From NCBI GenBank assembly GCA_030220185.1, contig JASPKZ010004202.1, positions 1,926,001 to 1,990,000 of the forward strand: a stretch of 64,000 bases of DNA, written 5' to 3'. Position 1 is the first letter of the stretch, and every line of letters starts with the position of its first letter. The notes under the pieces were generated by a model. That model did no database searches and had not been told where the DNA came from. It worked only from the letters and a program-made list of their open reading frames with translations. This stretch comes from Diploptera punctata (lineage: Eukaryota > Arthropoda > Insecta > Blattodea > Blaberidae). This document shows positions 1,994 through 43,715 of the stretch, in pieces. Position numbers and translations under genes: made by a program.

Positions 1994-2206
1994 TTAATTA
2001 TATTATTTTTGGTCTGGACATCTTACCTCAATATTAATGTTGATTTGTTCTTGGACATGTTTCAGTCTGGGAAAGCTGAAGATAAAACAGAGAATTGTTT
2101 TGAAACATGTCCAAGAACAAATCAACATTAATATTGAGGTAAGATGTCCAGACCAAAAATAATATAATTAAAATAACCTCAAAATATAACTTCCTAAAAT
2201 TAAATA
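1994..2206 (+). mobile_element. PLE hairpin element A with 14-bp target duplication
   Basis: Arms 1994-2064 and 2101-2171 are perfect inverted repeats over 71 nt around a 36-nt spacer. The right side continues as AACCTCAAAATATAACTTCC, the element's end. TTAACATATTTTCC is duplicated at 1980-1993 and 2207-2220. The left side lacks the terminal segment, so one end is truncated. Confidence 0.85.
2076..2117 (+). ncRNA. Hammerhead ribozyme motif, element A
   Basis: CTGAAGA (2076-2082), stem II with AAAACA pairing TGTTTT, GAAA (2102-2105), CATG (2106-2109, self-complementary stem III), TC (2110-2111) with predicted cleavage after 2111. Stem I is weak here. The spacer of the hairpin supplies the core, so it is present only once in this element. 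Confidence 0.7.
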
Positions 2207-2485
2207 TTAACATATTTTCCGCCTGCACAAAACACTTGGATGGGTAATAGATTAGGTGCTAATTATGATAGCACAATAAAAAAAATTGAAATTATCAAGG
2301 AGGCAAAAAAATACGAAGGTGGTCTATGTTAACACGCCCAACAACCAAAACCCTCTATATGAAATATTTACAAATAATTCAGTACTATGAGAAATCCTGA
2401 AGATGAAGCATGCTCTTTGAAATAACTAGATTTTAATAGTATGATGACATTTTACAACAGAAGTTAACACAATTGAGGAAGACTC

Positions 2486-2642
2486 TTTTATCAGGTACAA
2501 ATTTTTAATTATATTTGAAGAGAAAATTGTTTCCCTAGACCAAGACTCGAACCCAGGACCCTTGCCTTTCCGGGCCAAGTGCTCTACCAACTGAGCTACC
2601 GAGGCGAGTTGTGATCCAGATGCAAATTTTTCTCTTATATAC
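2486..2642 (-). repeat. tRNA-like repeat, copy 1
   Basis: On the minus strand: GGTAGCTCAGTTGGTAGAGC (A box, D-arm), then GGGTTCGAGT (B box, T-arm), then a TTTTCTCTTCAAATATAATT tail. The acceptor stem is imperfect and position 33 is not T, so this is a tRNA-derived repeat and not a tRNA gene. Confidence 0.75.
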
Positions 2643-2771
2643 ATTGTAATTTCCTCCCGCCAAATGCTTGAAACCGTAGCTTCTATCTTTGCAAATGGCT
2701 GCTTCTTAGTTAAGAAGACATTTATTGGGAATTTAATACTACTTTATAAAGCCAGTAGGGCTTCTATTGGC

Positions 2772-3017
2772 GATTTTATTATTAATTTAACACTTCTCAC
2801 TGAAGGATAAATTATATTCAAAGAGAAAATTTTTTTACAATATATATAAGAGAAAAATTTGCATCTGGATTGCAACTCGCCTCGGTAGCTCAGTTGGTAG
2901 AGCACTTGGCCCGGAAAGCCAAGGGTCCTGGGTTCGAGTCTCGGTCTAGGTAAAAAATTTTCTCTTCAAATATAATTTATCCATCAGTGAGAAGTGTTAA
3001 ATTAATAATAAAATCGA
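2772..3017 (+). repeat. tRNA-like repeat flanked by inverted tails, copy 2
   Basis: The tRNA-like head (about 2880-2950) is nearly identical to copy 1 but on the other strand. The segment 2772-2835 is the reverse complement of the tail 2952-3017 (GAGAAGTGTTAAATTAATAA and following), so the tRNA-like core sits inside ~65-bp terminal inverted repeats. Confidence 0.7.
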
Positions 3018-4085
3018 CAAATTTTTAAATTTAAACCCCATTTTAACCTCAGTGGTGTTCCACCATGAATTTTAAAAGTATATACATAATATTTTAATGG
3101 AAAAGGAAGGAATATGCAATTTGATAGAAAACAATAATGACCAATTTGTTACATATTTATTGTTAATTAAAATTACAATGGCCACGGAACATAATGCAGA
3201 CACATATTTGATGCACTGTCACCAGAGCGCAGAGAAATGAACCTTAAGATTAAGTGAACAGAGAAGCCAGGGAACCTCATTTTTGATCCATAAGTCTGTC
3301 TTCCTATTGTCATCCTCTTCTTCCACATCTCCATCTCTTCTTCTTCCGCATTATTCTGTGGCCATTGTAAAAATTGCTTAAATACTGCAAAGACCTTTAT
3401 GAGGAAAATAAAAATCACATTTTTCACCATAATAAATGGGGATAATTTCTTCTTTCTTGTGGGCTCTACAAGGCTTCTCTGTCATATAAATATTTTTTTT
3501 TTGTGTTATTGAAAAATCTGCTAAGCTGCCATATGCCATTAATGACGGTAAATTGTCTTTCTTATTAGCTACAAGAAATTTTATTTAATAAAAGGTTATA
3601 TAATTTATATGTGAATTTTCATTCATTCCAGACATTGCACAATTTGATTTTACAGAACAGTTGCATTGATGATTGTCACCCTTTTAGTAGTAATATTAAG
3701 CGACATAAACAGTATCTTCAGTGCATAACACTTTATTCACCTCAAAAAAGTTCTTAGAATAGAAGTTGCATAATGAAAAACATATTTTTTATTACATTCT
3801 CTTTTTATGCATCCTAGCAATGTTGATATACTGTACTAAAAACACACACAGAAAATACTTTATAGAAACTATAAATATAATGTTATTTTTGTATTTATTT
3901 ACAGCAAATGACAATTTTTTCAGTATATTCTAAGAAACAATCCAGATTTAGGGTTTAATTATAATATATACTTATACTTTTATAATTAAAATTGACGAAC
4001 TTGGGTGCCATTATTATCTCAGAATGTTAACAGATTTTAGGGATTTTACGTATAATATAGAAAAAATGAGAAATTCATTGCTTAG
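3018..4085. other. AT-rich spacer, nothing recognised
   Basis: No coding, RNA or repeat signal that I could identify. The minus-strand frame at 3173-3430 has no family resemblance. Confidence 0.4.
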
Positions 4086-4087
4086 TT

Positions 4088-4255
4088 ACTGCATGGCCCG
4101 ACAGGCCTAGAAGGCTCTTGGCCTACCAGCTTGTTGCTGGCCTCACAACTACATGTGTTAATTACAGAGGTAGACAATCATTCTGCCAGTGTAGGAGTGA
4201 CATGTGGTGAGCATGTCGGGTTCCCCAGCCATTATAGCTGGTTTTCTCATCCTAG
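4088..4255 (-). mobile_element. SINE-2 tail fragment
   Basis: Matches the 3' half of the SINE at 26527-26868 in reverse: GGCCTACCAGCTTGTTGCTGG, GAGTGACATGTGG and CCCAGCCATTATAGCTGG. The tRNA-like head is missing. Confidence 0.65.
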
Positions 4256-4480
4256 AGAAATTCATTATAAAATAGAAATAATTAACTACAATGTAAATGT
4301 ACGAGAACATGATAGAAATAGTATTTTAATTTTCCAAAATTTTTAGATACATCTTACAGAGAGGAATGTCTTATACACTGATAAATAAGGTAATATCAAA
4401 ATTGGAATGTTTATTTTTACAAAAAGGAAATTAAATTTCTTAACTGCTTCATCTAAGAAAATATATGTGGGAAACATAGT

Positions 4481-4680
4481 GAGTGGAGAACATATTTTTA
4501 ACGACTCACCTCATATAATTTCAAATTTCTTTGATACCGGTGGTTTCAGACAATATCTTGTCCCTCTTCAGTTAGGAAGCCATGACTGAAGAAGGACAAG
4601 ATATTGTCTGAAACAGCCGGCATCAAAGAAATTTAAAATTATATGAGGTGAGTCGTTAAAAGTATGTTCTCCACTCATTA
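4481..4680 (+). mobile_element. PLE hairpin element B with hammerhead core
   Basis: The left arm (~4481-4562) and right arm (~4593-4680) are inverted copies, ending GATTATATGAGGTGAGTCG-like on the right. The core is CTGAAGA (4586-4592), GACAA/TTGTC stem II, GAAA (4610-4613), a GCCGGC-centred stem III, then TC at 4623-4624. The left arm has ACCGGT in stem III, so the two arms have diverged slightly. Confidence 0.75.
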
Positions 4681-5635
4681 TTAATGATATAATCTCATGT
4701 TTACTTCGCAATATTAATTTAAATATAGTAATGCATTATTTAAATTCTGCTGTACAATTCTAGTATTCTTACATTTAGTAACTCAATCTTATTATTTGTA
4801 AATTATAAACCCATTTACAATGAAATTTGCAGACTTCTCCATTGTCATACTATTTTTAAATGTAATTTTTTTGACAATATAGATCCAAGCGAATGATGAC
4901 AAATCAAGAGCTTCAGAACATTTGAATGCTACTAGATCCTAACAAATACTTTGCAGACTTAAGATAAATTCTGCTAGATTTAATGCAATCAATTTCTGAA
5001 ATATAATCAGGGATTCCCTTAAGGATGAGGTTTATAAGACAAAAATCACTAGATACAAGTACAATAATCAATTGTAGTATTTAAATAGAAAATTGCTGCA
5101 CTTCTACCAAGTGTAATATACAAGTTAAATGTGGACAAAAATGTTTTATTTGTGAAAACTTGGTGATATAAAGTGGTATCTGGAATGTTTTCCAAATACT
5201 AGTAAGGGTGGCACACTCAGTTGCAACAATTTTGATACACGATACCTAAAATTCTTCCATAATATGAAGTAAAAACCTACACATTATGTCTAGTAGAGAG
5301 ATGAAAATACACATTTCATAAACTTAAGTTGATCATCTCTGCCCTCTGTGAGTGTTAATATCTTGCGTTTGTCTATGTGAAAGGGTGAACCACATACAGT
5401 GGCTAGCGAACTTTACAACAAAAACATTTCATACATTATATTAATGAGAATTTAATTACATTTTATTGAGTTAAATAAATAATAATTAAATTGAGTCATG
5501 ATAGTTTTGTGAGTAGAATAATACCACCACATTGAAATACATGCTATTTGTTCCCAATCACCATAATAAATTATTCCAAAGTGTAACCTTAGATATACTT
5601 AGTATAATGATATATTAAGTAGCAAGTAAATACAT

Positions 5636-5879
5636 TTTATTTTAAAATACAATAGGAAGTAACATTAAGAGGTTTGTTTAATAATTAAAACATTTTGTCT
5701 GTTCATTCTTACCTCTTAAGAGTAGTTTTTGTCGAACATGTTTCAGAGCTTCTTAGCCGCATCGTCAGCGATTACAGTATGTCTGTAACTGCTGGCGATG
5801 GGGCTAAGTAGCTCTGAAACATGTTCAACAAAAACTACTCTAAGAGGTAAGAATAAACAGACAAAATGTTTTAATTATT
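5636..5879 (-). mobile_element. PLE hairpin element C with 12-bp target duplication
   Basis: AAGTAAATACAT is duplicated at 5624-5635 and 5880-5891. The complete end is at the left (reverse complement AACCTCTTAATGTTACTTCC). The right arm is truncated just outside AAGAGGTAAG. The terminal stem here is TTAAGAGGT/ACCTCTTAA, a compensated variant of the usual TATGAGGT/ACCTCATA. Confidence 0.85.
5731..5771 (-). ncRNA. Hammerhead ribozyme motif, element C left arm
   Basis: On the minus strand: TCG stem I, CTGACGA (5768-5762), GGCT/AGCT stem II, GAAA (5744-5741), CATG (5740-5737), TT (5736-5735), then CGAC closing stem I. The right-arm copy has CTGGCGA, a loss of the invariant A6. Confidence 0.75.
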
Positions 5880-6628
5880 AAGTAAATACATATTAACTTG
5901 AAAGGAAAGAAAACTGAGTAAAATGGACAAAAAATAAAAGAAAAATTTCTAGATGAGAGAATATATAACATTATTGCATCAATAAAAATTATAGGAATGA
6001 CTATTAAACTATAACTGGATGGAGAATTGACAACCAGAATAATTTTGGACGTATGCAAAAGATGAATTGAAGAGATATTGGATGCATATTTCCTTCAAGA
6101 TTGGATTTATAAACATTATTAGATCAATATTCCAGCAAAGATCTATATTTTCTTGAGTTTAATAGAGAACTCTCTTTTAATTATACATAATATAAATAAA
6201 TTAATACTATTAAAAAGACAAGCTCTACAAAGAGTCACATTAAATTCTACTTCAAAATATTCTATCTAATTGTGAGTATATAAAAATTATTTAAGTAGAT
6301 TACATTCATTATGGCACATAACTTGCTCTATTCTAATGTTCTTTGAGTCACTGCTACGCTATGCATATTGTAATGCACATTTAAGAGAGTATGACATGAA
6401 ATAACAGTACTTACATAATGTTACAGGGAAAGCAACTAATGCTGTTATTATTACTAAAAGCAAGCATTTCTTACAACTATTTATTTATGTACAGGCATAA
6501 CATATTGCTTAAAACTATTTGCAACTACAAGTTGTTTATTAAGTTATGTAGATAGGAAATAACACTATGAGGTTTTTTAATATTGTTTATTTTTTATTAT
6601 TTCACTCACCTCATACTTCATAATTCAT

Positions 6629-6674
6629 AGCAGACCCTGGGTTTCTTCACATCTTTTGTGACATTCTCAATGCT
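6629..6674 (-). ncRNA. Hammerhead-like motif with U3/A8, element D left arm
   Basis: Stem I AGCA/TGCT (6674-6671 with 6632-6629), core TTGAGAA (6670-6664), CACA/TGTG stem II, GAAA (6645-6642), CCCTGGG stem III, TC (6634-6633). Core positions 3 and 8 are U and A instead of C and G. Confidence 0.5.
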
Positions 6675-7020
6675 ATGTCACGTTCACAACTGACGTCCAA
6701 CGGCCTTCTATCCTGCAGACTGACCTCCGCGCCATCTGGTGGCCGACCGAAGAATTTCCAAATCAGTCCTCTCTCCTTATAACCAGGTATTTCAAAATTC
6801 ATAGTTGTATTTTCATTCTTGCATAAGTAATTTTTTTCCCAAATTGTGAGTTCCTTCGGTTTTTCCAATTGTTTAAGTAATTTTGTTTTGGTTTCTATTC
6901 TATGTTTTTCTGACCAGGCATGTGCAGCTATTCCAGATTTTTCGGTTTCTCCATTTTTAACATTTCTGAGGTGTTCTTTTAATCTTGTATTTAGATTCCT
7001 TTTTGTTTTTCCTATGTATA
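6647..7020 (-). pseudogene. PLE GIY-YIG endonuclease fragment (left arm)
   Basis: The minus frame reads CEKIYIGKTKRNLNTRLKEH, then NGETEKSGIAAHAWSEKHRI and KPKELTIWEKNYLCKNENT. This is the GIY-YIG nuclease of Penelope-like retroelements: YIG strand, the R of TKRNLNTR, and the conserved AAHAW/EKH region. It is only the C-terminal part; no reverse transcriptase is present, so it is a dead copy. It reads on to the 3' UTR within the same frame (DRRPLDVSCERD). Confidence 0.85.
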
Positions 7021-7041
7021 TCTTTTCACAATGTTGTATAT

Positions 7042-7422
7042 CAATATATATACATAGGAAAAACAAAAAGGAATCTAAATACAAGATTAAAAAAACACCT
7101 CGGAAATGTTAAAAATGGAGAAACCGAAAAATCTGCAATAGCTGCACATGCCTGGTCAGAAAAACATAGAATAGAAACCAAAACAAAATTACTTAAACAA
7201 TTGGAAAAACCGAAGGAACTCACAATTTGGGAAAAAATTTACATATGCAAGAATGAAAATACAACTATGAATTTTGAAATACCCGGTTATAAGGAGAGAG
7301 GACTGATTTGGAAATTCTTCGGTCGGCCACCAGATGGCGCGGAGGTCAGTCTGCAGGATAGAAGGCCGTTGGACGTCAGTTGTGAACGTGACACAGCATT
7401 GAGAATGTCACAAAAGATGTGA
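7042..7422 (+). pseudogene. PLE GIY-YIG endonuclease fragment (right arm)
   Basis: Inverted duplicate of the left-arm copy, differing at a few residues (KKHLGNVKN against KEHLRNVKN, WEKIYICKN against WEKNYLCKN). The small differences show that the two arms have diverged since they were formed or had different templates. No RT domain. Confidence 0.85.
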
Positions 7423-7440
7423 AGAAACCCTGGGTCTGCT
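7395..7440 (+). ncRNA. Hammerhead-like motif with U3/A8, element D right arm
   Basis: AGCA (7395-7398), TTGAGAA (7399-7405), CACA/TGTG stem II, GAAA (7424-7427), CCCTGGG, TC (7435-7436), TGCT (7437-7440). Same arrangement as the left arm. Confidence 0.5.
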
Positions 7441-7499
7441 ATGAATTATGAAGTATGAGGTGAGTGAAATAATAAAAAATAAACAATACAAGTTGTTTG

Positions 7500-10193
7500 C
7501 TGGGATGCATCTACTGAAGAAAACTAGGTACCTACTGAAAGTTTGTTCTAATAGCTTATCTAATAATAAGCAATTCCCTATGTAACATATTGAGATCATA
7601 CACTTAGGGCCAATCACAAATTGTGATATTCTTATTCTATGTCAATAAATACAATATATAAAAAAAGTGAAATTAACATTCTATAAGTAAAAAAAAAAAT
7701 CTACATCACATTCCACATATAAAAAGAAGCTTTTAAATGCTAGCTGCCTACAAGATGAGAATTAATTATAATAGCTACAGTATTGAAGTGTTAAGACAGT
7801 TATATAGTCTTATGTGCTGCAGCCATTTATGGAGCCTTGGAAATGATACACTAAAGGAAATGCAATACTGGCTGCATATAAATGTAAATAAATATAGATA
7901 GCTGCCATTTTGTGCGTTTATATTTAGTTTTAATGATACTAATTTCAAATTTTTTATCAGTTGTAGTGACATCCATTTCAAAAATTGTTTGAGTGCAAAA
8001 AAAAAAATTGCATACCAGTAATTATTAAATTGAATAATTAGTTTAATGATTCTAAATTCTCACATTTTTGTCTAGTACATGCTGTAAACATAATTTTTTT
8101 AGAATACATTTTTAGCTGGCAAAATTAATTGGGTGTCACTAGTAATACAAAATTAGTATTTGTGGTACGAGTATAAACTTACGGTGAAAAGAATAAGAAA
8201 TATATTATTTGGGACTTTTGTTCTTATAAAATTAATTCCTTTTGTATACAATTTATATTATCGGGAATATATTTTATATAATTTTTAACGAGACATGATT
8301 TGTGTCTGGTATTTAGTTATGAATAAATATTTTTGTAGCATACAGTATAAATAAAAATTATTGTAATTAAATACTTTGTTTGAAAAATGAATGGGTTTAT
8401 GTACTACTCTGTAATGGGACCGTTATCATAATATTTCTGTATTCTTTTTCTACCACATTTGAAATCTTAACCAATCCTATATTTTAAAACTAGTAAAATG
8501 GAAAAAGCAAGAATATTTATAAAATTATTTATGAACTTCCCCGGCACACACCTATATAAATATTTCCATACAAAAGAAATAATTAATATACCCAGAAATA
8601 TGACAGCAGTTGGTCTGTCAGAATTCTGTTACATAATTCAAACACAACTAATACAAAATACATTCCAACTCCAAGATGATTATACAAAGATAATAACATA
8701 TGGTTCAATTAATAAGATATTAAATGTAACTAAATTCTCATTAGAAAATTTGCAAAAATTACCAAAAAGTTGACATGTTAGCAAACATTAAATTTCGTTA
8801 TTTTAAATTAGTTCGCTAGCCACTGTTTACAAACATGAATTCTGATTTCAGCTTATTAATGTTTTGACAAAGCCATCAAAAGACTTAACTACATGTAACA
8901 CACACTACAAAGACACTTTTTTTTTTATTTGATATAACTTTTCTGCCCTGTACACATTATTCAGTGCAAAAATTTTTGCATAGCATACAACAAGCTTCAC
9001 TTCTAGAAAAAAAAATGGTTGCTCTTTGTATCAACTTCTACTTTTTATTCACACACCATGAATACTTGAATTTTAAAATAAACATGCAGACTCTTGGGTT
9101 ATATTATTACTGTGGATATTTTATGAGTAATCATTTTTTTACAATAGAATATAGAACAGCATAATTTGTTTTTTATTGTTTTAGTAAATGAATTCCAATG
9201 ATACATCAACCTTCAGTTTATTTCTTTTTTTCCCCATAAACTTACTACTAAACATGGTTAATGACAGAATAAATTAAATAAACGTGTATATTTTCACCTT
9301 TTATGTGCTGATTCAAATTTGTTCAGGTTATATTCTATGATATATAAGTGTCTTCTTTTATGTTTGAAAACATATAACTAAACACTTGTGCTTGATAAGC
9401 TTCTAAATGTACCGGTAACCAAGTTTGTACAAAAAGCCACTTTTAAGATACACGTCATGCATCCATTCACACATCACACTAGTTTTTATTATTATTATTA
9501 TTATTGTTATATACTAACAGTAATACAATTAGAAAAATTAAAATACTATGGCTGGAGGGAGCTTCATTCAAAGTTATGATATCTATCAAAATTTTTTTTT
9601 TTCAAAATTAGCCCTTTTCCAATGTTATCTTACACATTTACTTTTATCATAAGATTAAAATTAAAAATTTGCAAGAAAGCAATTTTAGAATAGTGAAAAA
9701 TCATTATTTTAAATAACATGAGAGGAGTAATACAAAGATTATTTTTTTTTATTTCCTATTCTACTCGTACTTTTGTATCCACAAAAATGTGTAAATAAAA
9801 TAATTTGTTTTAACCTGCCTACTCTGATAAAAGGACTCTGTTATCATTTATACACTGTACAATAAAATATGGCTGTGGTGCCAACTAAACGCTCACTATA
9901 TTTAACACAGAAAAACAACTTGCCGATCACAACAACTCAAAACTGTCAACTAACAATACAATGGAATACTTGTTAAAATAGTAAAATAGTTGCAGCCTGC
10001 TTAAATATATAAGTTCACATGATGAAACACAGATGGAGCCACCAACTTAGAGTGAGGGGGCTTTAATATTTTTTTTTGTTTATACAAAAGAAAGGACAAT
10101 AAAAATGACCATCTCTACCATGTTTTTCTGTCAAATCCTAGATGGCATACTTAGCTGCTAAATGTGGAAGGAATGATTTGAATCACCTGACAA
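7500..10193 (-). other. AT-rich stretch below the Appl stop, probable 3' UTR and flank
   Basis: No gene is recognised here. The sequence is very AT-rich with homopolymer runs (for example an ATT repeat near 9490). Part is presumably Appl 3' UTR because it directly follows the stop on the minus strand, but the extent is not determinable. Short frames such as 8498-8773 (+) lack any family signal and I treat them as chance. Confidence 0.4.
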
Positions 10194-10304
10194 TTACTCC
10201 TTGACTTCAAAATATTTATAGGTGGGGTTTTCATAACCATTGATCTGCATGTTAGCCACATGTCGTTCTTCAGGGGTGGCTGCTTGGTCAACCTCCACAA
10301 AACC
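10194..10304 (-). CDS. Appl: Appl, last coding exon: cytoplasmic tail
   Basis: 36 codons plus TAA (stop 10196-10194), acceptor CAG|GGT. It encodes [20 protein letters not shown] followed by [23 protein letters not shown] is the invariant internalisation motif that binds PTB adaptors (Fe65, Mint/X11, JIP families). TPEER matches the phosphorylatable Thr motif of vertebrate APP. The exon lies 5.7 kb beyond the transmembrane exon, across an intron full of PLE hairpins. The 3' UTR must run to lower coordinates; I cannot place its end among the many AT-rich AATAAA-like sites. Confidence 0.95.
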
Positions 10305-10471
10305 CTGTCAAAGCACACACATTTTAAATTATAAACAGTGCTTCAGTTGGGGCAGATGGCATCCTTGTACTTCTTGTCTAGTTCAACTTTTATACGAAAA
10401 ATCACTATGAGGTCAAATTTAAGAATTAAATTAATGTTTTTATTACCTCACCTCATATCCTTTTGTCTTCT

Positions 10472-10508
10472 ATACTGCAGTTTCGGAGCTTATCTCCATC
10501 ATCAGTAT
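10472..10508 (-). ncRNA. Hammerhead ribozyme motif, element E left arm
   Basis: CTGATGA (10505-10499), GGAG/CTCC stem II, GAAA (10484-10481), CTGCAG (10480-10475, self-complementary), TA (10474-10473). Confidence 0.75.
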
Positions 10509-10681
10509 AGCCTCTGGTCGATCGGTGTTATGTCGTTTCTTGCCAGTTTTCTCCTTACTTCTATCGGTGGACCAATGAACCTCTGGATCAGGTCAAAATT
10601 TTGATCCAGAGGTTCATCATTTCACCAATAGAAGTAAGAAGAAAACAGCCAAGAAACGACATAACACCGGTTGACCAGAGG

Positions 10682-10720
10682 CTACTGATGATGGAGATAA
10701 GCTCCGAAACTGCAGTATAG
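10682..10720 (+). ncRNA. Hammerhead ribozyme motif, element E right arm
   Basis: CTA stem I, CTGATGA (10685-10691), GGAG/CTCC stem II, GAAA (10706-10709), CTGCAG (10710-10715), TA (10716-10717), TAG closing stem I. All core positions match the hammerhead consensus. Confidence 0.8.
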
Positions 10721-10784
10721 AAGAAAAAAGGATATGGGGTGAGGTAATAAAAACATTAATTTAATTCTTACTTCTTGTCTAGTT

Positions 10785-12670: not shown

Positions 12671-12780
12671 AAGCTGAAGATGGTATGGACAACATATTGA
12701 AACATGTCAAATGAAACATAAAGTATTTATGAGGTAAGGTTTATTAAGAACCTCATAATGTTACTTCGTACTGTAACTTA
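12671..12780 (+). mobile_element. PLE 3' end, single arm, with hammerhead
   Basis: CTGAAGA (12674-12680), GTATG/CATAT stem II, GAAA (12699-12702), CATG, TC (12707-12708). It is followed by TATGAGGT, a short ~14-nt loop, ACCTCATA and ATGTTACTTC. No long inverted arm, so this is a solitary 3' end. Confidence 0.75.
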
Positions 12781-14962: not shown

Positions 14963-15700
14963 TAATTAAATATATGTAGGAAATAACACTATGAGGTTTC
15001 TTTCAATTTTAATGAGTTGCATATTTTGACTCACCTCACATTTCTTGACTCTCCATGGTATCTTTACCTTGTCGTGGTGGAGTGGTTTGCGTGCTTAAAT
15101 GATCCTGAGAGCTATGCCGGCAGTAGCATTGTTGCCGATAGGGTTACTCATGCTGACTGGTCGAAGGTGATAAGCCAGACGAAAAAAGTACCTTGGTCGA
15201 AAGAGTGATGATCTTTCACCGTAAAAATACAACCGTCAAGAAATGCAGACATGGGTTCCACTGGGGTAAAATTTTCCGGCGGTCAAATAGTCCCCCATTC
15301 GGTTCTCCGAGTGGGGACTACTTCAGGGAACCCATGCCAAAGGCTCTATTTCTTGATTTTTATGCAGACCAATTTCTTTGCTTCTGTGTAACATTCTCGA
15401 TGCATTACAACTGTTGCTTTGCTGTTGTACATCCTGCAAGTTGATTTCTGCTCCCTCTGCAGGCTGACCGATGAACTTCCAAATAAAATTCTTTTCTCTT
15501 TAAAAATTCCCGGTGAAAGAGAAAAAAATTTATTTGGAAGTTCATCAGTCAGCCAGCAGAGGGAGCAGAAATCAACTTGCAGGATGGAGAACAGCAAAGC
15601 AACAGTTGTCCTGCATCGACAATGTCGCACAGAAGCGATGAAACCAGTCTGCATAAAAATCAAGAAATACGAGGTGAGTCAAAATATACAAGTCATTAAA
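14963..15700 (-). mobile_element. PLE hairpin element H with nested SINE
   Basis: ATACTGTGAAAT (14951-14962) and ATACTGTAAAAT (15701-15712) flank it (one mismatch). Arms around 15357-15510 and 15530-15680 are inverted copies. Translated segments in both arms share LQVDFCSLC and DELPNK (PLE 3' region after the endonuclease). The left arm is interrupted by a nested SINE. Confidence 0.8.
15049..15347 (+). mobile_element. SINE-5 nested in element H
   Basis: ATTTCTTGA is duplicated at 15040-15048 and 15348-15356, and removal restores the PLE arm. It contains TTGTCGTGGTGGAGTGG near its start and AGTGGGGACTACTTCAGGGA near its end, shared with 36803-36925. Confidence 0.75.
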
Positions 15701-16135: not shown

Positions 16136-16493
16136 CTGAGGAGAAAAAATCACAATCTGTAAGCCTGTGTACTTAGAAAAAAGTTTAGTATAATTTATTA
16201 ATACAATAATAGAAAGTGGAATATTAAGGTAAAAAAAATCAAGTGACTAGGAATTCAAAGAATCCTGGTAATATCACTATTTTTTTTAAATATTCTTTAG
16301 AACTTATTATTTATTTATATATATATATTTATTTATTTATTTGTCTGTGGAGTGAGAAGTTATTGTTTTTTAATATACTGTACACTTGGTCATGTAACTC
16401 CCTTTTTAGTGTATACAAACCATTCTATTAGGAGTCCAAAACCATATAGTTTTATTATGTTGTCTAGGGTATGTTCTGCTGAACAATTGTCAT

Positions 16494-16794
16494 TTTAAGT
16501 TATGTAGGTAGGAAATAACACTATGACGTTTACTTTAATTTTGTTGAGTTGTTTCTTGACTCACCTCATACTTCTTAAGTCCCTAGCAGATCCGGATTTC
16601 TTCACTGTATTTGTGACATTCTCAGTGCTGTATCACGTTCACAACTGACGTCCAATGATGCATGAGAGGAGACCATTGGATGTCAGTTGTGAACATGATA
16701 CAGCATTGAGAATGTCACAAATACAGTGAAGAAATCCGGATCTGCGAGGGAGTTATGAAGTATGAGGTGAGTCAAGAAACAACTCAACAAAATT
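16494..16794 (-). mobile_element. PLE hairpin element I with 9-bp target duplication
   Basis: AATTGTCAT is duplicated at 16485-16493 and 16795-16803. Arms include TCCGGATTTCTTCACTG and its complement. The left end has AACACTATGACGTTT. On the plus arm AGCA (16702-16705), TTGAGAA, GAAA (16731-16734), TCCGGA and TC form a U3/A8 hammerhead-like core. The left-arm core is CTGAGAA. Confidence 0.85.
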
Positions 16795-16849
16795 AATTGT
16801 CATGTTCTTCAGCATATTTTATTATTGGAGTTTGAAACCTAAGGTGTAA

Positions 16850-17464: not shown

Positions 17465-17775
17465 GAGTCATTTTTACATCTTACCTCATATTTCATGTTT
17501 CTTTAAACATGGGAACTAGTTTTCAAGAGAAATATCTCTCTTATTTTCAACCGACATTTTGACTACCGGCTTTTCATTGGAATCTCCATCAATAACATTG
17601 CCATCTGGTGTTGATTTGATGAACTTAGAGATGAGGCTATGTTCATCAGGAATCTCGAAATTCATGGATCTAAATTTGTTCTTCTCAATATATATCTTCT
17701 CCCAAATTTAGATCCACGAATTTCGAGATTCCTGATGAACATGACCTCATCTCGAAATTTATCAAATCAACACCT
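17465..17775 (+). mobile_element. PLE hairpin element J, truncated at both ends
   Basis: TAAATTAAT occurs at 17456-17464 and 17776-17784. The inner arms pair GAATCTCGAAATTCAT with its complement. On the minus strand a hammerhead-like core has TTGAAAA (17550-17544), AAGAGA/TCTCTT stem II, GAAA (17524-17521), ACTAGT and TC. Confidence 0.65.
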
Positions 17776-18438: not shown

Positions 18439-18637
18439 CTGTTGAAAATAACTTATCATGAGTCAGGAATTACAAACAACATAATGAATGAAGTAGTGGA
18501 GTTATCAATACTTATAAAATTTATTGTTTAAAACCGTTGAGGTGGGTAGTCATAAAATAAAATAAAGGATAAAATATATCTTCTTAGGTCAGAGCCATCG
18601 TCCTCAACTTAAAAAAAATATACATGCCTTTTTTTGT

Positions 18638-18675
18638 CTGAAGGCCTTTCAGAATCTCTATTCCATCTTCAGCAG
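18638..18675 (-). ncRNA. Hammerhead ribozyme motif, element K left arm
   Basis: CTG stem I, CTGAAGA (18672-18666), GAAT/ATTC stem II, GAAA (18650-18647), GGCC (18646-18643), TT (18642-18641), CAG (18640-18638) closing stem I. Confidence 0.8.
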
Positions 18676-18758
18676 GACTTTCTTTGCTACATTACTTGAC
18701 GTACAGCACTACATTAGGACCAGCACCGAGAACATCAAGTAATGTAGCAAAGAAAGAC

Positions 18759-18796
18759 CTGCTGAAGATGGAATAGAGATTCTGAAAGGCCTTCAG
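18759..18796 (+). ncRNA. Hammerhead ribozyme motif, element K right arm
   Basis: CTG (18759-18761), CTGAAGA (18762-18768), stem II, GAAA (18784-18787), GGCC (18788-18791), TT, CAG (18794-18796). Every required core base is present in both arms. Confidence 0.8.
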
Positions 18797-18911
18797 ACAA
18801 AAAAGCATACATATTTTATAAGTTGAGGACGACGGCTCTGACCTAAGAAGGTACATTTTATCTTAATTTTATTTTAATGGAGTTATAAATTAAAAAACCT
18901 TTTAACTTTTG

Positions 18912-25445: not shown

Positions 25446-25448
25446 AAG

Positions 25449-25945: not shown

Positions 25946-25977
25946 TTTAATATGAATTTGAAAAGTGTTGGACTCAC

Positions 25978-26232
25978 ATTAGGAGGATTGTCATTGAGAG
26001 CCTGTGTGTAACATCCCATGGCTTCCTTCTTCCTCTCGTTGATGTGAGCCATGACTCGCTGCTGATGCATAGCCACTAGCTGGTGCTTCTCTGCATCGCC
26101 TTCTTCCTCTAGAGCTTGCACTGTCTTCTGGAATCGCTGAGTCATCCTCTTCTTGAATTCATCTGCACCCTTTGGATCATTGGTCCTCATATCCTGGTAC
26201 CGCTCTTCCAAATCTGACCAGTCCTTCATGAC
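25978..26232 (-). CDS. Appl: Appl, internal exon: E2 core helices
   Basis: This exon has 85 codons, phase 0 at both ends (CAG|GTC acceptor side, AAT|GTGAGT donor side). It begins VMKDWSDLEERYQDM and includes QALEEEGDAEKHQLVAMHQQ and AHINERKKEAM, a highly conserved part of the APP/APPL E2 coiled-coil domain. In the family E2 mediates dimerisation and binds heparan sulfate and metal; the conserved histidines (KHQL, MHQQ, AHIN) are present here. The protein acts at the neuronal surface or as a shed ectodomain. The intron between this exon and the preceding one is about 4.05 kb and contains the hairpin arms at 27.5 and 29.5 kb and a mariner-like fragment. Confidence 0.96.
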
Positions 26233-26394
26233 CTGTACAAACATAAGTTGCATTCAAATAATGAATATCTTAATATTTATGAACTTCTTATGCCATCCTT
26301 TGGCAAATTTAACATTCAATTAGAACCAAAAAAATGATTATAGCCTGAATTGATTAATTAAAACCAACTAAAATGAAAAGATTAATGAAGGCAA

Positions 26395-27944: not shown

Positions 27945-28035
27945 GAAAAGAAAAATATACGCCTAGACTGGGGTTTGAACCCAGGACCTTTGACTCTCTA
28001 TATCAATGCTCTTCCAAGTGAGCTACCTAGGCCTC
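27945..28035 (-). repeat. tRNA-like repeat, copy 6
   Basis: Minus-strand GCCTAGGTAGCTCACTTGG, GGTTCAAACCCCAGTCTAGGC: the acceptor stem pairs 7/7 (one G-T), the best-preserved head of the family. The TTTTTCTTTTCAAATATAATT tail follows. Confidence 0.65.
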
Positions 28036-30148: not shown

Positions 30149-30286
30149 CTTGCTTAGTGGTGTTGTAAGTGATTTGTTTTATTCTATTGTAATTTGAAGG
30201 ATTCCCTTTCCAATGATAACATCATATTTCCTTTAATAATAATATTTTAGTCACTAAAAAGTTTATGTAAAAAAAGGTATATTTAC

Positions 30287-30639
30287 CTTAGTGACTTTTT
30301 CACGGTGCATTTCTTCAAGTCGCTGCTGTGCATCTTTGTAAGCCTGATGCTCGAGTCGTGGGTCGAAGTGTGTGAAGTAGGGATCAGGTGTTGGGACCTG
30401 TGTTGAAGAGGCAGGAGCAGCTGTGGGACTCGGATATGGTAGAGTGCTTGCCGTGCTGCTGCTAGCGTCCTCTTCCATGTAGTCATCATCTTCTTCCTCC
30501 TCTTCCTCTTCAGGGTCACCATCTTCGTCGTCCTCGTCTTCATCATTGTCATCTTCATCGCTTGCCACTTCTTCAAACATATCATCGTCCTTACTCTTCA
30601 GACTTGCCAGATCAATTGGTTTTTTAGGTTTCAAATTGT
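30287..30639 (-). CDS. Appl: Appl, internal exon: acidic region and start of E2
   Basis: Amyloid-precursor-like membrane protein, a neuronal type I receptor-like protein. This is the first exon visible in the window. It opens with two bases of a split codon after a TAG acceptor and ends at AAG|GTAAAT in phase 0. The first ~15 residues are basic and neutral. Residues ~20-60 are an almost unbroken Asp/Glu run, followed by a Ser/Thr/Pro-rich linker. The last ~35 residues (PYFTHFDPRLEHQAYKDAQ and following) are the first helix of the E2 domain, as in APP-family proteins. The upstream exons with signal peptide and E1 are not in the window. A second long frame on this strand is only a shadow of the acidic run. 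The assignment is secure because the next exon continues E2 in phase. Confidence 0.95.
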
Positions 30640-30788
30640 CTACAAACAAGAAATAATTTTTATATATCTCTTATTAAAAGTAAATGTATTATCACAAAAT
30701 TAAACTAGAAATTACATTTTAAAGCATCTATTATAATAATATTTTTGTTTACCCATTTGTGTTAAATGTTGGTATAATGCTAAATTAA

Positions 30789-35432: not shown

Positions 35433-35444
35433 TATGATAGTGAA

Positions 35445-36185
35445 TTACAGTTCATGAAGTCCCGGTCAAACCATATTAATTTTTTCATTAAAGAGAATTA
35501 TTCCTGTGGTTGCCCAGGGTCTGGAATTTAGGTTAAGAACTCTCCTGGCGCTTCATTATCATTTATCACCCATCATATCATCGGGGTAACGTAACTCCAC
35601 CTTCCAGGTGTCCCAACCTAAGAAATGGATTACAATTCCGCCAATGTCAGGGGAGAAAACAAGAAATGTCATAAAAGACAACCTGGTGGCATTAAAAAAA
35701 TCATCACTTTGTTCAATACAAGTGCAAACCTTTACATTTATTCCGAACACTTTAATTCTTAAGTTTATATATATATTGGAATTATTGTTTTGTTTTGTTT
35801 CCGAAAATTGCATTATCATAATGGCAGTTTCCAAAGTAATACTATTTTTTTTTCTATTAGGCCTATCACATAGCTTATGGGCATGGTTATTAATTATTAT
35901 TATCCGATACACAGCATTTTAAATCAAATTGCATTTGCTTACGAGTTTAATGTCGCCTATTCTTGTCATGGTGTCCATCGCGACACGGTGTGAATCTCAC
36001 AGGTTGTACTCGGGAATTCAGTTGGAGATATAGACCACTTTTCATGTCGGAAAATTCGTTAACAACACATCTCTATAGCAAGACCAATTTTGACTTCCTG
36101 TTCGGAAAAAAAAAAGCTAAATTTTCATGACAAAAAAAAAACTATCGACCTTGGTAAATAGCAAACACGTGACTCTCGGACGCAT
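35445..36185. other. Unassigned sequence
   Basis: Some segments (CACCCATCATATCATCGGGG near 35570) recur near 33180 and 34990, so part is dispersed repeat. No coding signal. Confidence 0.3.
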
Positions 36186-36189
36186 CTTA

Positions 36190-36304
36190 GGGCGGAATTC
36201 ATAAAACCATCTTTATGCAAAGAGCGACTCTTTCCCCCTTTCTACGTCATAGAGAGGGGGAAAGAGTCGCTCTTTTCATAAAGATGGTTTCAAGAATTCC
36301 GACC
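36190..36304. mobile_element. Palindromic MITE, 115 bp, TTA target
   Basis: TTA at 36187-36189 and 36305-36307. Ends GGGCGGAATTCATAAAACC and GGTTTCAAGAATTCCGACC. Arms are complementary over ~50 bp (AGAGCGACTCTTTCCCCC). Confidence 0.8.
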
Positions 36305-36544
36305 TTAAATAGCATTTTTCACGGCTGATTAGTGGCGTGTGGTTGAGATACCGGTAGTAATGGAACTATCACATTACCCATGCCACTATTTACAAATATA
36401 AATTCTGCAGAAATGGATTTTTGGAGGCGTTCAGCTGGAATTTCTATACGAAATAAAATGAGAAACAGTGTAATTAAATAAAAGAGCAATGTTGAAACTT
36501 CAATTGTGAATTACATAAAAAAACAAACAATAAAATAGTATGGT

Positions 36545-39232: not shown

Positions 39233-39295
39233 TAAACATCGAATATTAGCTTTACTTTCCAGAAATGTAATGTGTTGATTTCCATTTTAAAGTGC

Positions 39296-40978
39296 TCTTA
39301 TTTAAGAGACCGCTAGAGGATATGATTGCAGATTCCAAGAGTATATTAAATAGATGGAAAAGTTATTTTAATCAGCTATTAAATGTACATACAGAACAGG
39401 ACATTGAGGAGGATAAGTTACAGACAGCAGAAATGCTAGTCGCAGAGCCAAGTGCATTAGAGGTTGAAATGGCGATTGAAAAATTGAAGATGTATAAAGC
39501 ATCAGGTTCAGATGAGATCCCAGCAGAACTGATAAAATCAGGGGGAGAAAAATTGATGGACAAGATACGCTGGTTGCTTACTATGATTTGGGAAAAAGAA
39601 GATCTTCCAGATGAATGGAAGGAATCAATTATCATACCAATTTATAAGAAAGGAGATAAAACTGATTGCAACAACTATAGGGGCATCTCATTACTTTCAA
39701 CTTCGTACAAAATTCTAACAAATATATTAGTAAGCAGACTTACTCCCTATATTGATGACATTCTAGGAGATCATCAATGTGCATTTAGAAGAAACAGGTC
39801 TAACAACAGATCAGATTTTTAGTATAAGACAGATTTTAGAAAAGAAATGGGAATATAATGGTACTGTACATCAACTATATGTAGACTTCAAAAAAGCATA
39901 TGATTCAATTAAGAGGGAGAAGTTATATAGTATCCTGCTGGAGTTCGGAATTCCTAAAAAGTTAGTTAGACTTATACGAATGTGTCTAAATGGCTCAAAT
40001 AGTAGGGTGCGTGTAGGCAAACAGTTTTCAGACACTTTTGAAATCCAGAATGGGTTGAAGCAAGGAGATGCACTATCTCCTCTACTATTTAATTTTGTAC
40101 TAGAGCATGCCATTAAATCTTTAGAGAATGAGGAAGGCCTACAACTGAATGGTATTAATAAGCTGTTAGTTTATGCTGATGATGTAGTACTACTGGCCGA
40201 TAGCGAGGAGATACTAAAGGCCAACACGCACACACTATTGAGTAACACTAAGAAATTAGGACTGGAAGTAAATATCAGTAAAACTAAATATATGGTCACA
40301 CATAGAAATACATTATATAATGGAAATGGACAGCTAATGACAAATGAGGGAAATTTTGAGGAATTGGCTGAATTCAAATACCTAGGAACAATAATCACAA
40401 ATAGGAATGAGATGCACAAAGAAATTAAACATAGGCTCAATTCTGGAAATGCATGCTATTATGCATTGCAGAGACTTTTGATGTCCCAACTCCTTTCAAA
40501 AAACGTTAAGCTGAAAATATATAAAACTATTATTCTACCAGTTATATTATATGGGTGCGAAACATGGACTCTTACTTTAAGGGAGGAAAGGAGATTACGA
40601 GTATTTGAGAATAAAGTTCTTAGGAAAATTTTTGGACCAAAGAGAGATGAACAGACAGGTGAATGGAGAAGACTACATAACAATGAACTACATGGTCTTT
40701 ATAGGAAGCCAGATATAATAAGAACAGTTAAGTCCCGTAGACTGCGATGGGCAGGACATGTTGCACGTATGGGGAATGAAAGACGTGCATGGAAACTTCT
40801 TGTAGGAAAGCCAGAAGGAAAACGCCCAGTTGGTAGACCAAGAATGAGGTGGGAGAACAACATTAACTATGATTTGAGGGAAGTAGATTATACAGGGAAT
40901 GACTGGAAAGCATTAGCTCAGGATAGGGATGTGTGGAGAGCTTATGTCCGTGCGGCCATGAACCTACGGGTTCGATAG
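39296..40978 (+). pseudogene. LINE-A ORF2: reverse transcriptase, frameshifted
   Basis: Non-LTR retrotransposon reverse transcriptase that would copy its own RNA at a nicked target. Frame one (to 39822) shows KASGSDEIPAELIKSGGE and IPIYKKGDKTDCNNYRGISL, RT motifs 1-2. A frameshift near 39800 leads into frame two (from 39779) with LYVDFKKAYDSIKREKLY, GLKQGDALSPLLFNFVLEHA, and LLVYADDVVLLAD holding the catalytic YADD. The tail has KYLGTIITNR, YGCETWTLTLREERRL, RLRWAGHVARMGNER and GKRPVGRPRMRWENNINYD. Motif pattern is RTE-like by my recollection. The endonuclease is missing (5' truncation). Only one frameshift, so it is a fairly young copy. Confidence 0.88.
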
Positions 40979-41094: not shown

Positions 41095-41200
41095 TGATGC
41101 CTAATAGCTTAAAACGTTAAAGCACTGGTGTACAGTACCAGAGATATTGGGTTCAAATCCCGATTTAGGCATATATTTTTCTCTTCGAAAATCAAAAGAA
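41095..41200 (+). repeat. tRNA-like repeat, copy 9
   Basis: TGGGTTCAAATCCCGATTTAGGC with a TATTTTTCTCTTCGAAAATC tail. Confidence 0.6.
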
Positions 41201-42010: not shown

Positions 42011-42064
42011 ACACCAATGCACTTTTTAAGCTCCGGTCCTATAGTATGTATGGTAATGTGTATA

Positions 42065-42645
42065 TATATATTTTTATTATATACAACTTTCCTCATTAGA
42101 GGATTGCCTCAAGGACAAAGTGATACAGACAATTATTTTTTTGAATATATGAAATATATTTTGTAAATACATTTAAAAAATTCAAATTCTAGGCCTAATG
42201 GAAATATACATACTACAAAGTAGAAATTTTGTAAAAATAGTTTCTTAAAATTTAAATTGATCCTCTAATGGCAGCGATGACAATTTTAGAAAGATACACC
42301 CTGTCCAAATCTAAGGAATTCCAAAATTTGGCTAAGAATCCTGGTATAGTATCTCTTGCCCCGATCATCAATCCTGTGACAGTTATACTATCTAGTTGGT
42401 ATTTATCTTTGTAATAGTCAATTGTTGGCTCATATATGGCTTTCTTTTCAGAGTCAACTTCCTCAGGTTGGCCAGTATGAGTCTCAAAACGAATTGTGGG
42501 ATCTAATATCATACCAATTTTAGAAGATGGTCTAAATGAAATAATATCTATTCGTCTGTTACTCCCATTAGTGGCCACACCATGAACTTCCTCATAAACT
42601 GTGAATCCAAAATCTCGCAAGGCTTCTGCCGTCATGTTTCGAATA
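42065..42645 (-). mobile_element. Restriction-endonuclease-type LINE, second copy
   Basis: 3' part 42070-42250 matches 280-490; coding part upstream on the minus strand. Confidence 0.65.
42252..42645 (-). pseudogene. LINE ORF C-terminus with restriction-like endonuclease
   Basis: Minus frame: TLRNIRHHTIRN, MTAEALRDFGFTVYEEVHGV, NRRIDIISF, MILDPTIRFETHTG, EEVDSEKKAIYEPTIDYYKD, GLMIGARDTIPGFLAKFW. The R-D/I...ILDPTIRFE...K..Y pattern fits the PD-(D/E)XK-type nuclease at the C-terminus of R2/R4/NeSL-type LINEs, where it cleaves the target site. The RT is not present, so the copy is 5'-truncated. It ends shortly after AAIRGSI, unlike the copy at the window start, which runs on into a Cys/His segment. 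Family placement is from motif memory. Confidence 0.6.
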
Positions 42646-42684
42646 GTGTGGTGCCGAATGTTTCTCAGTGTTATATACGTTAAT

Positions 42685-43075
42685 TATCAAAAATAGTATA
42701 TTATGATGCGAGGTTTTTTAAATTTCCGAGATGGTGTTTTCAAAATAATAACATCTTTGTTGGAAGTATTTGCGTTCATTATAAACAATTGATTAACGTT
42801 AACAGTGTGGGCAATGTTTATTAGTTGAAACAACAGGAGGCCTTGAGAACAATTATTGATAACATGGCCGCAAGTACGTATTTATTGTTTTATATTGTTT
42901 CAAATAAAGTTCAGTTCATTTAAAATGCAGTGATGTTTCGTATAATGTATATTAACAATACCTTTTGGATATGTTTTGTATGTAGGGCCTACATTGTACG
43001 TAGTATACATAGAGGAAGTGGTTTTACTTCCCGTACGTGGGTGTAAATGTAATATTACAGTATAGTTATTTATTA
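42685..43075 (-). repeat. Single diverged copy of the satellite-bearing repeat
   Basis: Reverse complement of one 221-bp satellite unit plus its right flank: shared AAGTACGTATTTATTG, TATTGTTTCAAATAAAGTTC, GTACGTAGTATACATA, TATTACAGTATAGTTAT and TATATTATGATGCGAGG. Confidence 0.8.
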
Positions 43076-43139
43076 ATTAAATAAAAATAAAACTTTGTTT
43101 TATTTGATTTTCATATTTATTAAGATATAATTCAGTGAC

Positions 43140-43560
43140 AGCTGTTTCGGTACACTGTACCTTCTTCAGACATGTTAACAAATTATGAATTGTGTTATTA
43201 TAGTACATATCAACTGATCTAAACAACAATACAACAATGATTTATTTAAATTTCTTAATTTAACAAAGGCGATTCATTGAAATCAAGTTAAGAATTTAAC
43301 AGTTTATTACTACTTTTCAATTTATTTATTTCTACATCCTCCAAAAGGTCTAACTTCTTACCCTTATCACAAACATGTAAAATTTCAAAATTTGGATCGA
43401 AACAATCATTAAATTGGAATAGGTGGTTAGCATATTTTGAATATTCTAAATTTCTGTTATATGCTCCTAATGTGTTCCTTTATCCGAGAGATAAACGGTC
43501 TACCAGTTTGTCCTATATAGACATTGTCACATGTGCCACACTTCAATTTATATACACCTG
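43140..43560 (-). pseudogene. Second PLE type, GIY-YIG endonuclease, frameshifted
   Basis: Minus strand reads [20 protein letters not shown], then [11 protein letters not shown], then after a frameshift NRNLEYSKYANHLFQFNDCF and LHVCDKGKKLDLLEDVEINK. The Cys-rich lead KCGTCDN and YIGQTGR mark a GIY-YIG nuclease clearly different from the YIGKTKRN family elsewhere in the window. A 3' region with CTGAAGAAGGTACAGTGTAC follows on the minus strand. Confidence 0.75.
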
Positions 43561-43627
43561 ATATTTTTTTGTTTGTTTTATTGTCTTTTAAATTTATTTA
43601 TTTTCTTGTATATCGTATTTTCTTCAT

Positions 43628-43715
43628 AGATAGTACTGAAGATGAGACCGTTATGGTCTCGAAATCGCGATCTACGTAGAAGATATAAATGAGGAGAGGT
43701 AGCAAACATTTGATT
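43628..43715 (+). mobile_element. PLE 3' end, single arm
   Basis: Contains a complete hammerhead, then GATATAAATGAGGAGAGGTA, related to the end of hairpin M and the 20.4 kb copy. Confidence 0.75.
43633..43675 (+). ncRNA. Hammerhead ribozyme motif, best-preserved copy
   Basis: GTA stem I, CTGAAGA (43636-43642), GAGACC/GGTCTC perfect 6-bp stem II, GAAA (43661-43664), TCGCGA self-complementary stem III (43665-43670), TC (43671-43672), TAC (43673-43675) closing stem I. Confidence 0.85.

Follow-up and report, generated by a model that had tools for sequence, protein, structure and literature searches.

Small hammerhead variants carried by Penelope-like elements (PLEs) reportedly cleave as dimers, as described by Lunse, Weinberg and Breaker in 2017 and by Cervera and De la Pena in 2014. 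Here we analyzed hammerhead-type motifs in a 64,000-nucleotide (nt) stretch of the genome of the cockroach Diploptera punctata (GenBank assembly GCA_030220185.1, contig JASPKZ010004202.1, positions 1,926,001 to 1,990,000, hereafter called the window), together with the mirror-image PLE pairs in which many of them lie. Our favoured reading, to which we give a probability of roughly three in four, is that the motifs are minimal type I PLE hammerheads and that the mirror pairs are single insertions primed on both target strands.

Minimal PLE hammerheads, dimeric or tandem cleavage, a palindromic loop III and head-to-head PLEs are already known and in print (PMC7761336, PMC6155905, PMC3088659, PMC3846280; these sources, like PMC11167929 and PMC7229834 below, are cited from the part of their text available to us). 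The small PLE variants, as described by papers citing them (PMC7761336, PMC6155905), share with the cockroach motifs a type I core, a minimal stem III able to pair between copies and the association with PLEs. Judged from those descriptions, the cockroach motifs differ in their host, in their overlap with the end of an open reading frame (ORF) and in an abundant clade with U3-A8 in the core.

The hammerhead of PAc (Poseidon of Anolis) lies near internal start sites of reverse transcription, two of which delimit a tail, and has an AUG beside G8 (PMC11167929). The cockroach elements are similar in both respects, the AUG being part of CUGANG-AUG in 12 of 16 aligned motifs. However, the PAc ORF begins at the hammerhead, whereas the cockroach endonuclease ORF ends in it, and the available PAc text on start sites did not treat palindromic double-ended insertions (PMC11167929). 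The Penelope elements of Adineta vaga also form inverted head-to-head repeats with an optional one-sided tail and short target-site duplications (PMC3846280). These families have one or few copies, whereas here two families show one long and one short end in 43 of 44 scored insertions; the term hammerhead is absent from the Adineta text (PMC3846280). In the literature searched, which left most subscription papers outside, we found neither this one-long-one-short pattern stated as a rule nor a report of cockroach hammerheads. PLE integration and the role of the hammerhead are described as unresolved (PMC11167929, PMC7761336). With thousands of copies of two hammerhead PLE families in one genome, the one-long-one-short rule, the frequent equal arms and the shared template lineage reported below turn the integration question into testable counts.

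Hammerhead-type motifs in the window

Both strands were scanned strictly for CTGANGA and GAAA joined by at most 2 nt and a stem II of 4 bp or more, with 60 order-2 Markov sequences as control. The window gave 14 matches against a control mean of 0.23 (maximum 1), and in 10 of the 14 a self-complementary stem III was followed by UH, which occurred in none of the 60 controls. This bears out a first-pass annotation of the window, made from its letters alone, which had counted at least ten such sites. The four stems that it quoted were also located: GAGACC/GGTCTC in 43636 (plus), GGAACA/TGTTCC in 22685 (minus), GAAT/ATTC in 18762 (plus) and 18672 (minus), and GTATG/CATAT in 12674 (plus). The observation of hammerhead motifs is confirmed as real. 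A CTGAAGA at 7514 (plus) was dropped as a candidate because of its position outside its palindrome. The motifs, including those of the U3-A8 clade described further below, are as follows.

10682-10720, plus strand: hammerhead motif, subfamily A; CTGATGA, stem II GGAG/CTCC, stem III CTGCAG, UA, stem I CTA/TAG
10470-10508, minus strand: hammerhead motif 10505, subfamily A mirror arm; 2-nt stem I insertion, two contiguous pairs
22418-22456, plus strand: hammerhead motif, subfamily A, intact
22186-22224, minus strand: hammerhead motif 22221, subfamily A mirror arm; GAGA replaces GAAA
18759-18796, plus strand: hammerhead motif 18762, subfamily B; GGAAT/ATTCT, GGCC, UU, stem I CTG/CAG
18638-18675, minus strand: hammerhead motif 18672, subfamily B mirror arm
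22646-22688, minus strand: hammerhead motif 22685, subfamily C; GGAACA/TGTTCC, CTAG, UU, stem I ATA/TAT
23438-23480, plus strand: hammerhead motif, subfamily C mirror arm; stem II decayed (TGTATC)
43633-43675, plus strand: hammerhead motif 43636, subfamily D; GAGACC/GGTCTC, TCGCGA, UC, stem I GTA/TAC
20382-20424, plus strand: hammerhead motif 20385, subfamily D; decayed stem III (TCGCGG)
12671-12711, plus strand: hammerhead-like motif 12674, subfamily E; CATG, stem I unformed
5732-5771, minus strand: hammerhead-like motif 5768, subfamily E; CATG, stem I TCG/CGA, one stem II mismatch
2073-2114, plus strand: hammerhead-like motif 2076, subfamily E; core in the inter-arm spacer of palindrome 1994-2171, stem I of 1 pair
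4586-4624, plus strand: hammerhead-like motif, subfamily F; cut at the palindrome centre, mirror arm 4533-4571 on the minus strand
43134-43172, minus strand: hammerhead-like motif 43169, subfamily G; GGTAC/GTACC, CAGCTG, stem I of 2 bp
7396-7439, plus strand: U3-A8 hammerhead-like motif 7399, clade N; endonuclease ORF stop inside the motif
6630-6673, minus strand: U3-A8 motif 6670, clade N mirror arm; endonuclease ORF stop inside the motif
21072-21115, plus strand: U3-A8 motif 21075, clade N; mirror arm 20974-21017 (21014) on the minus strand
16703-16745, plus strand: U3-A8 motif 16706, clade H; stem III UCCGGA, mirror arm 16586-16628 (16625) on the minus strand with C3-A8
15613-15652, plus strand: U3-A8 motif 15616, clade P, decayed; U4C, stem III CCAG, mirror arm 15364-15403 (15400) on the minus strand

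The core CUGANGA...GAAA with UH is present in the copies of subfamilies A to D, except for the GAGA of 22221. The core or GAAA is altered in 22221, 25069, 25366 and the copies at 25.5 and 25.8 kb, and there is one stem II mismatch each in 5768, clade N and clade H. Over 16 aligned sequences, 90.6% of the stem II cells were paired, with a covariation score of 0.836 compared to 0.336 for shuffled and at most 0.18 for slid sequences, and both sides had changed at 5 of the 6 stem II pairs. Among 11 hand-registered representatives, own halves paired better than swapped halves in stem I as well as in stem II (0 of 20,000 permutations each). This is in agreement with the earlier statement that stem sequences differ between subfamilies but keep pairing. 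The first three positions of the inner stem I are paired in A (CTA/TAG), B (CTG/CAG), C (ATA/TAT), D (GTA/TAC, or GTA/TGC in 20385, which has four contiguous pairs) and 5768 (TCG/CGA). Stem I is reduced to two pairs in 10505, owing to the insertion, is weak in 43169 (2) and 2076 (1) and has no pair in 12674; the F pair 4571/4586 was left out of this assessment, its stem III register being ambiguous.

Eight of the nine distinct stem III sequences of the representatives are self-complementary, which was seen in 0 of 200,000 random sets; the stem III lengths in this count were picked by hand, the algorithmic count being the 10 versus 0 given above. CCCTGGG was counted as self-complementary with a free centre, and the CCAG of clade P is not self-complementary. 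Because the 4- to 6-nt loop of a monomer needs no complementary inner letters, pairing between two copies would be favoured. As had been suggested by the first-pass annotation, a dimer is most likely the acting form, if the motifs act at all.

That annotation had also proposed an Rfam search as a check; the search of the window returned no hammerhead, either at the gathering score or at E up to 10, and a search of the D. punctata genome with RF00008 gave no match, but neither did its controls. The silence of Rfam is probably due to the extra U after CUGANGA, present in 13 of the 16 aligned motifs, together with a stem III of only 4 to 6 nt. A model built from 16 window motifs (R1) recovered all 16 training sites as well as 5770 (plus, E 6.6e-6), 25344 (plus, 1.3e-5) and 25047 (plus, 0.004), the first two being clear extra copies and the remaining extras weaker. 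The motifs are filed as structural hammerheads by core and covariation, without an Rfam match, and the core and covarying stems suggest minimal type I hammerhead ribozymes of a diverse PLE group. Apart from the empty Rfam search, nothing speaks for chance motifs in an AT-rich, repeat-rich window, a virtually nil prospect that is refuted by the scan counts (14 versus 0.23 and 10 versus 0 expected), by the covarying stems and by thousands of genomic copies against zero in reversed-pattern controls.

The carriers are palindromic Penelope-like elements

The carriers of the motifs are PLEs, as seen from a GIY-YIG ORF, target-site duplications, an optional tail and inverted copies. Both arms of palindrome 6581-7488 hold outward-coded GIY-YIG ORFs (6647-7108, minus; 6970-7422, plus). 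The left arm matched PF01541 with E 7.1e-5 and 23.5 bits, above the curated cut-off of 22.6, and the right arm with E 3.9e-4 and 21.1 bits, just under it. The best protein match (P0001, from D. punctata itself; 92% identity over 86% of the query) carries a GIY-YIG domain and ends in the same ALRMSQKM, which overlaps the motif. The first-pass claim that hammerhead-type motifs of several subfamilies sit in outward-facing inverted PLE pairs is supported. Its placement of the motifs in an intron cluster holds in part, the motifs below 10 kb lying downstream of the stop codon of an APP-like gene on the minus strand (last coding exon at about 10.2 kb). The palindromic copies, which have no strand assigned, are as follows.

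6581-7488: palindromic PLE copy with GIY-YIG arms; 12-nt duplication 6526-6537 / 7487-7498, tail on the left only
22594-23532: palindromic PLE copy; arms of 435 and 427 nt, 9-nt duplication 22550-22558 / 23530-23538
1994-2171: palindromic PLE copy; arms 71/71 identical, 14-nt duplication 1980-1993 / 2207-2220, tail on the right
20932-21157: palindromic PLE copy; 11-nt duplication 20914-20924 / 21197-21207, tail on the right
10420-10770: palindromic PLE copy, subfamily A; centre at TCAAAATTTTGA
22143-22499: palindromic PLE copy, subfamily A; centre region as in 10420-10770 (TCAAAATTTTGA)
18553-18876: palindromic PLE copy, subfamily B; 9-nt duplication 18497-18505 / 18878-18886
16535-16796: palindromic PLE copy, clade H; 9-nt duplication 16485-16493 / 16795-16803
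5678-5881: palindromic PLE copy, subfamily E; 12-nt duplication 5624-5635 / 5880-5891
4476-4681: palindromic PLE copy, subfamily F; no clear duplication

Self-comparison of the window revealed outward-facing arms with spacers of 0 to 77 nt among 15 measured palindromes, and of 5 to 77 nt in 12 PLE palindromes. In 7 of 14 palindromes tested we found a direct repeat of 9 to 14 nt, one copy at most 7 nt from an arm end and the other 35 to 47 nt beyond the opposite arm. By comparison with the elements of PMC3846280 and PMC11167929, these extra 35 to 47 nt would represent the PLE tail. Other repeat patterns occurred in palindromes 10420, 22143 and 36189, and no target-site duplication was found in 4 of the 14. 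The tail contains a putative hairpin, ATGAGGT/ACCTCAT, which reads AAGAGGT/ACCTCTT in 5768 and TTGAGGT/ACCTCAA in 2076 in a permissive scan that also returns noise.

In the eight arms examined, the endonuclease ORF enters the motif and stops in it or just behind it (+14 to +55 from C3), and the motifs sit about 40 to 110 nt from the 3' ends of the PLE. In A, N and H the overlap of the ORF end with the motif is in frame 0 and in C and D it is in frame 2, the frames of A, C and D being assigned by protein similarity. That the motif is kept across two reading frames points to selection at the RNA level. Each strand of a palindrome transcript would hold one sense and one antisense motif, so that pairing of the arms should hide the ribozyme; calculated folding energies were -113 to -307 kcal/mol for seven palindromes.

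Since animal retrozymes hold type I hammerheads, which in amphibians combine a palindromic loop with a very weak helix III (PMC7229834), a retrozyme or satellite origin unrelated to PLEs might be proposed; we give it hardly any weight and regard it as refuted, because GIY-YIG coding sequence lies directly upstream of the motif and overlaps it, the duplications and the tail are of PLE type, and the motif forms no tandem array among the eight Tandem Repeats Finder (TRF) rows of the window.

Some further observations concern these palindromes. A conserved GAG/GTRAG about 45 to 55 nt downstream of the core in many motifs resembles a splice donor; it forms the 5' strand of the tail hairpin, with apparent compensatory versions. 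The arms of an inverted pair at 25422-25939 are separated by a 129-nt spacer, and a tandem repeat of 64 bp as well as decayed motifs of subfamilies B and E lie close by. This pair was the least symmetric of 13 PLE palindromes picked from the self-BLAST, in a comparison that assumes exponential truncation and whose p-value is illustrative only. Palindromes 36189-36305 and 17607-17774 have no recognised PLE motif, and the former shows a 9-nt direct repeat (36155-36163 / 36306-36314).

A clade with a compensated U3-A8 core

Palindromes 6581-7488, 20932-21157 and 16535-16796 have UUGAGAA where CUGANGA would be expected from its distance to the conserved TATGAGGTGAG, and these motifs were found through that position. 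Their stem I is GCA/UGC, their stem II UCAC/GUGA with one mismatch beside GAAA and their stem III CCCNGGG or UCCGGA. The C3-G8 pair has become U3-A8, except in one of six arms (16625, minus), which has C3-A8; arms 15400 (minus) and 15616 (plus) combine U3-A8 with a changed U4. The subfamilies listed by the first-pass annotation stand, but its inventory was incomplete, as it missed this clade altogether (6670, 7399, 16706, 21014, 21075, 15400, 15616, and 16625 with C3-A8). R1 also misses the U3-A8 motifs of the window at E up to 10.

A genome pattern for clade N, in which positions 3, 4, 7 and 8 were left free, matched 4,566 exact copies, compared to 0 for the reversed pattern used as control. 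U3 and A8 were present in 100 of 100 places among the matches listed. Relative to a CTG AGG core, the clade N changes are synonymous in the endonuclease frame (TTG, Leu; AGA, Arg). The same covariation of U3-A8 for C3-G8 is reported in several natural hammerheads and stated to be active in vitro (PMC3088659). The compensatory change is identical in the cockroach, where, unlike in those examples, it is the hallmark of an entire PLE clade that numbers thousands of copies. The clade offers a large natural set for the study of a compensated catalytic core, and searches fixed on CUGANGA, Rfam models or R1 overlook an abundant hammerhead-like family.

The motifs could also be dead relics, alike through amplification, with the C terminus of the endonuclease as the conserved part. 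Many window copies do carry disrupted stems or an altered core, few truncations fall at the cut site, and cleavage is reported to be dispensable for insertion of PAc (PMC11167929). We nevertheless consider this unlikely, with perhaps one chance in several, since relics would not account for a core maintained in two different reading frames, for stems I and II that covary between subfamilies while stem III remains self-complementary, or for the replacement of C3-G8 by U3-A8, a change reported elsewhere as natural and active in vitro (PMC3088659).

Head-to-head pairs as probable single insertions, mostly with a long and a short end

The genome-wide counts are for clade N and subfamily A, two of about ten subfamilies, the pattern of the latter matching 4,079 exact genomic copies (control, 0). 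Among the matches listed, clade N formed 30 neighbour pairs within 6 kb (27 head-to-head, 0 tail-to-tail and 3 on the same strand) and subfamily A formed 31 (26, 2 and 3, respectively), the other listed places having no exact mate within that distance. The inverted pairs to which the first-pass annotation had drawn attention are real, but they are not special to the cluster.

All 53 of these head-to-head pairs were fetched, and 44 had a scorable target-site duplication. In clade N, 21 of 27 showed a direct repeat of 10 to 17 nt, 49 to 59 nt from one core and 97 to 111 nt from the other; both ends were long in one pair (L051), and five were unscorable. In subfamily A, 22 of 26 had a repeat of 12 to 19 nt at 42 to 58 and 87 to 108 nt, four were unscorable, and no pair among the 26 had both ends far or both near. 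Exactly one long and one short end were thus found in 43 of the 44 scored insertions. When left and right flanks of different insertions were combined as a control, the same arrangement appeared in 1 of 702 combinations for clade N and in 32 of 650 for subfamily A. Repeat length discriminates weakly (N mean, 12.7 versus 8.9 for cross pairs; A cross mean, 9.5). Counting the tail motif over the 27 N pairs gave one tail in 22, two in 1 and none in 4.

Nine variable sites were compared between arms: 145 of 162 comparisons agreed, versus 90.3 expected, and N7 was concordant in 25 of 26 A pairs. Both arms come from one template lineage. By strict extension, the index of unequal arm length was at most 0.25 in 37 of 53 pairs (15 of 27 N, 22 of 26 A), a count that may understate symmetry because the extension halts at large indels. 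It supersedes a lenient alignment by which 44 of 53 pairs were symmetric (20 of 27 N, 24 of 26 A). The mirror-image pairs are single insertions, with a duplication of 9 to 19 nt where scored; each scored insertion has, with the exception given above, one short end and one long end (a tail of about 40 nt), and the arms often end at a similar point. In view of the duplications and shared variants, two unrelated neighbouring copies were rejected as the usual source of palindromes. Among the clade N pairs, L052 alone disagrees at the A/T diagnostic base; it lacks a duplication and is perhaps two neighbouring insertions.

Spacers were 7 to 83 nt in the 13 of 20 N pairs whose centre was found, and 0 and 2 nt in the A pairs L072 and L081. 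The gap between downstream parts was at most 30 nt in 1 of 27 head-to-head pairs and below 66 nt in 2 of 27 (subfamily A), which gives no indication that the hammerhead had cleaved the majority of templates. The palindrome centre lay within the motif in 2 of 27 pairs (L098, L099), whose shorter arms begin before the cut site and not at it, and hammerhead-cleaved RNA was rejected as the usual template.

Insertion mechanism

A staggered cut, two start sites, one template lineage and an often shared stop together suggest that the two target strands are primed on one RNA. The endonuclease would cut both target strands, and the two target 3' ends would each prime reverse transcription on the same RNA, from two start sites beside the tail hairpin of which one is used per target end. 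The two cDNAs would then be joined head-to-head, by microhomology or by fold-back priming, the hammerhead of the copied RNA remaining mostly uncut before insertion. The PAc protein cuts and extends both strands, two internal start sites delimit the tail, and insertion is reported without need for cleavage (PMC11167929).

Several results weigh against this reading, besides the silence of Rfam. The pair survey rests on the first 100 places of each pattern (N, 4,566; A, 4,079), the distance windows for long and short ends were fixed after the data had been seen, and 3 of the 7 duplications in the window measure just 9 nt, which some random pairs also attain. Symmetry is not universal, the strict index being 0.25 to 0.5 in 5 and above 0.5 in 11 of 53 pairs, and the lenient alignment overstated it by bridging large gaps, such as a 193-nt spacer in L044. 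Of 8 unpaired N copies, 7 had short ends and 1 a long end (tail), which suggests that the two start sites are unequally used in some insertions. By raw distance the partner was nearest in only 6 of 28 longer arms, and divergence was 3.7% within pairs versus 4.3% between; when all 54 arms were compared, 21 had their partner as nearest or tied and 2 as strictly nearest, a comparison that does not separate the mechanisms. The failure of raw distance to single out the partner is compatible with private mutations acquired after insertion. In L098 and L099 the shorter arms begin 4 and 2 nt before the cut site, which makes a link to cleavage possible there, and the PAc hammerhead was cleaved only with protein added (PMC11167929).

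The most serious competitor is fold-back, in which a single cDNA, initiated at the long site, folds back at its 3' end and primes its own copying into the second arm. It would explain equal arms and small loops, and the spacers (5 to 77 nt in the 12 window palindromes, 7 to 83 nt in clade N), the template lineage shared by the arms, the centres of 10420 and 22143 near the native TCAAAATTTTGA and the self-priming proposed for Adineta Penelope (PMC3846280) are all in agreement with it. However, the tail would be copied too, predicting two long ends, whereas a single long end was found in 43 of 44 scored insertions; the 0- and 2-nt spacers of two A pairs are too small for a hairpin loop; and joining the second target end requires an extra step. 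We therefore regard fold-back on its own as doubtful, although it has a better claim than dead relics have against the motifs. Fold-back and two-strand priming may also be combined.

Building on two-strand priming, we tentatively suggest that PLEs could work as a two-sided machine, an idea that is more likely wrong than right. A dimeric reverse transcriptase would cut both strands, each half using a different start site flanking the tail hairpin, and the template would be one RNA or an RNA pair held by hammerhead stem III. The hammerhead would then serve mainly as an RNA-RNA contact or as a processor after insertion, not as a template cutter. If true, the resulting mirror-image insertions would have exactly one end of each kind, long and short.

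Other features of the window

Exons of the APP-like gene, which we take to be Appl, lie on the minus strand at 10190-10310 (C terminus), 25936-26253 and 30263-30670, with pieces of the APP_E2 domain. RVT_1 matches (39271-39822, 39767-40978) lie outside the palindromes and belong to a non-LTR-type reverse transcriptase ORF (39271-40978) with many truncated copies, including at 53-63 kb. Rfam matches of tRNA-like type at the gathering score were found inside repeats at 2532-2605, 2879-2952, 27960-28032 and 41099-41171; these are probably tRNA-derived short interspersed nuclear elements. A satellite array at 45427-50073 comprises about 21 copies of a 221-bp unit with 99% match, and a diverged single unit of the same satellite at 42888-43072 adjoins motif 43169.

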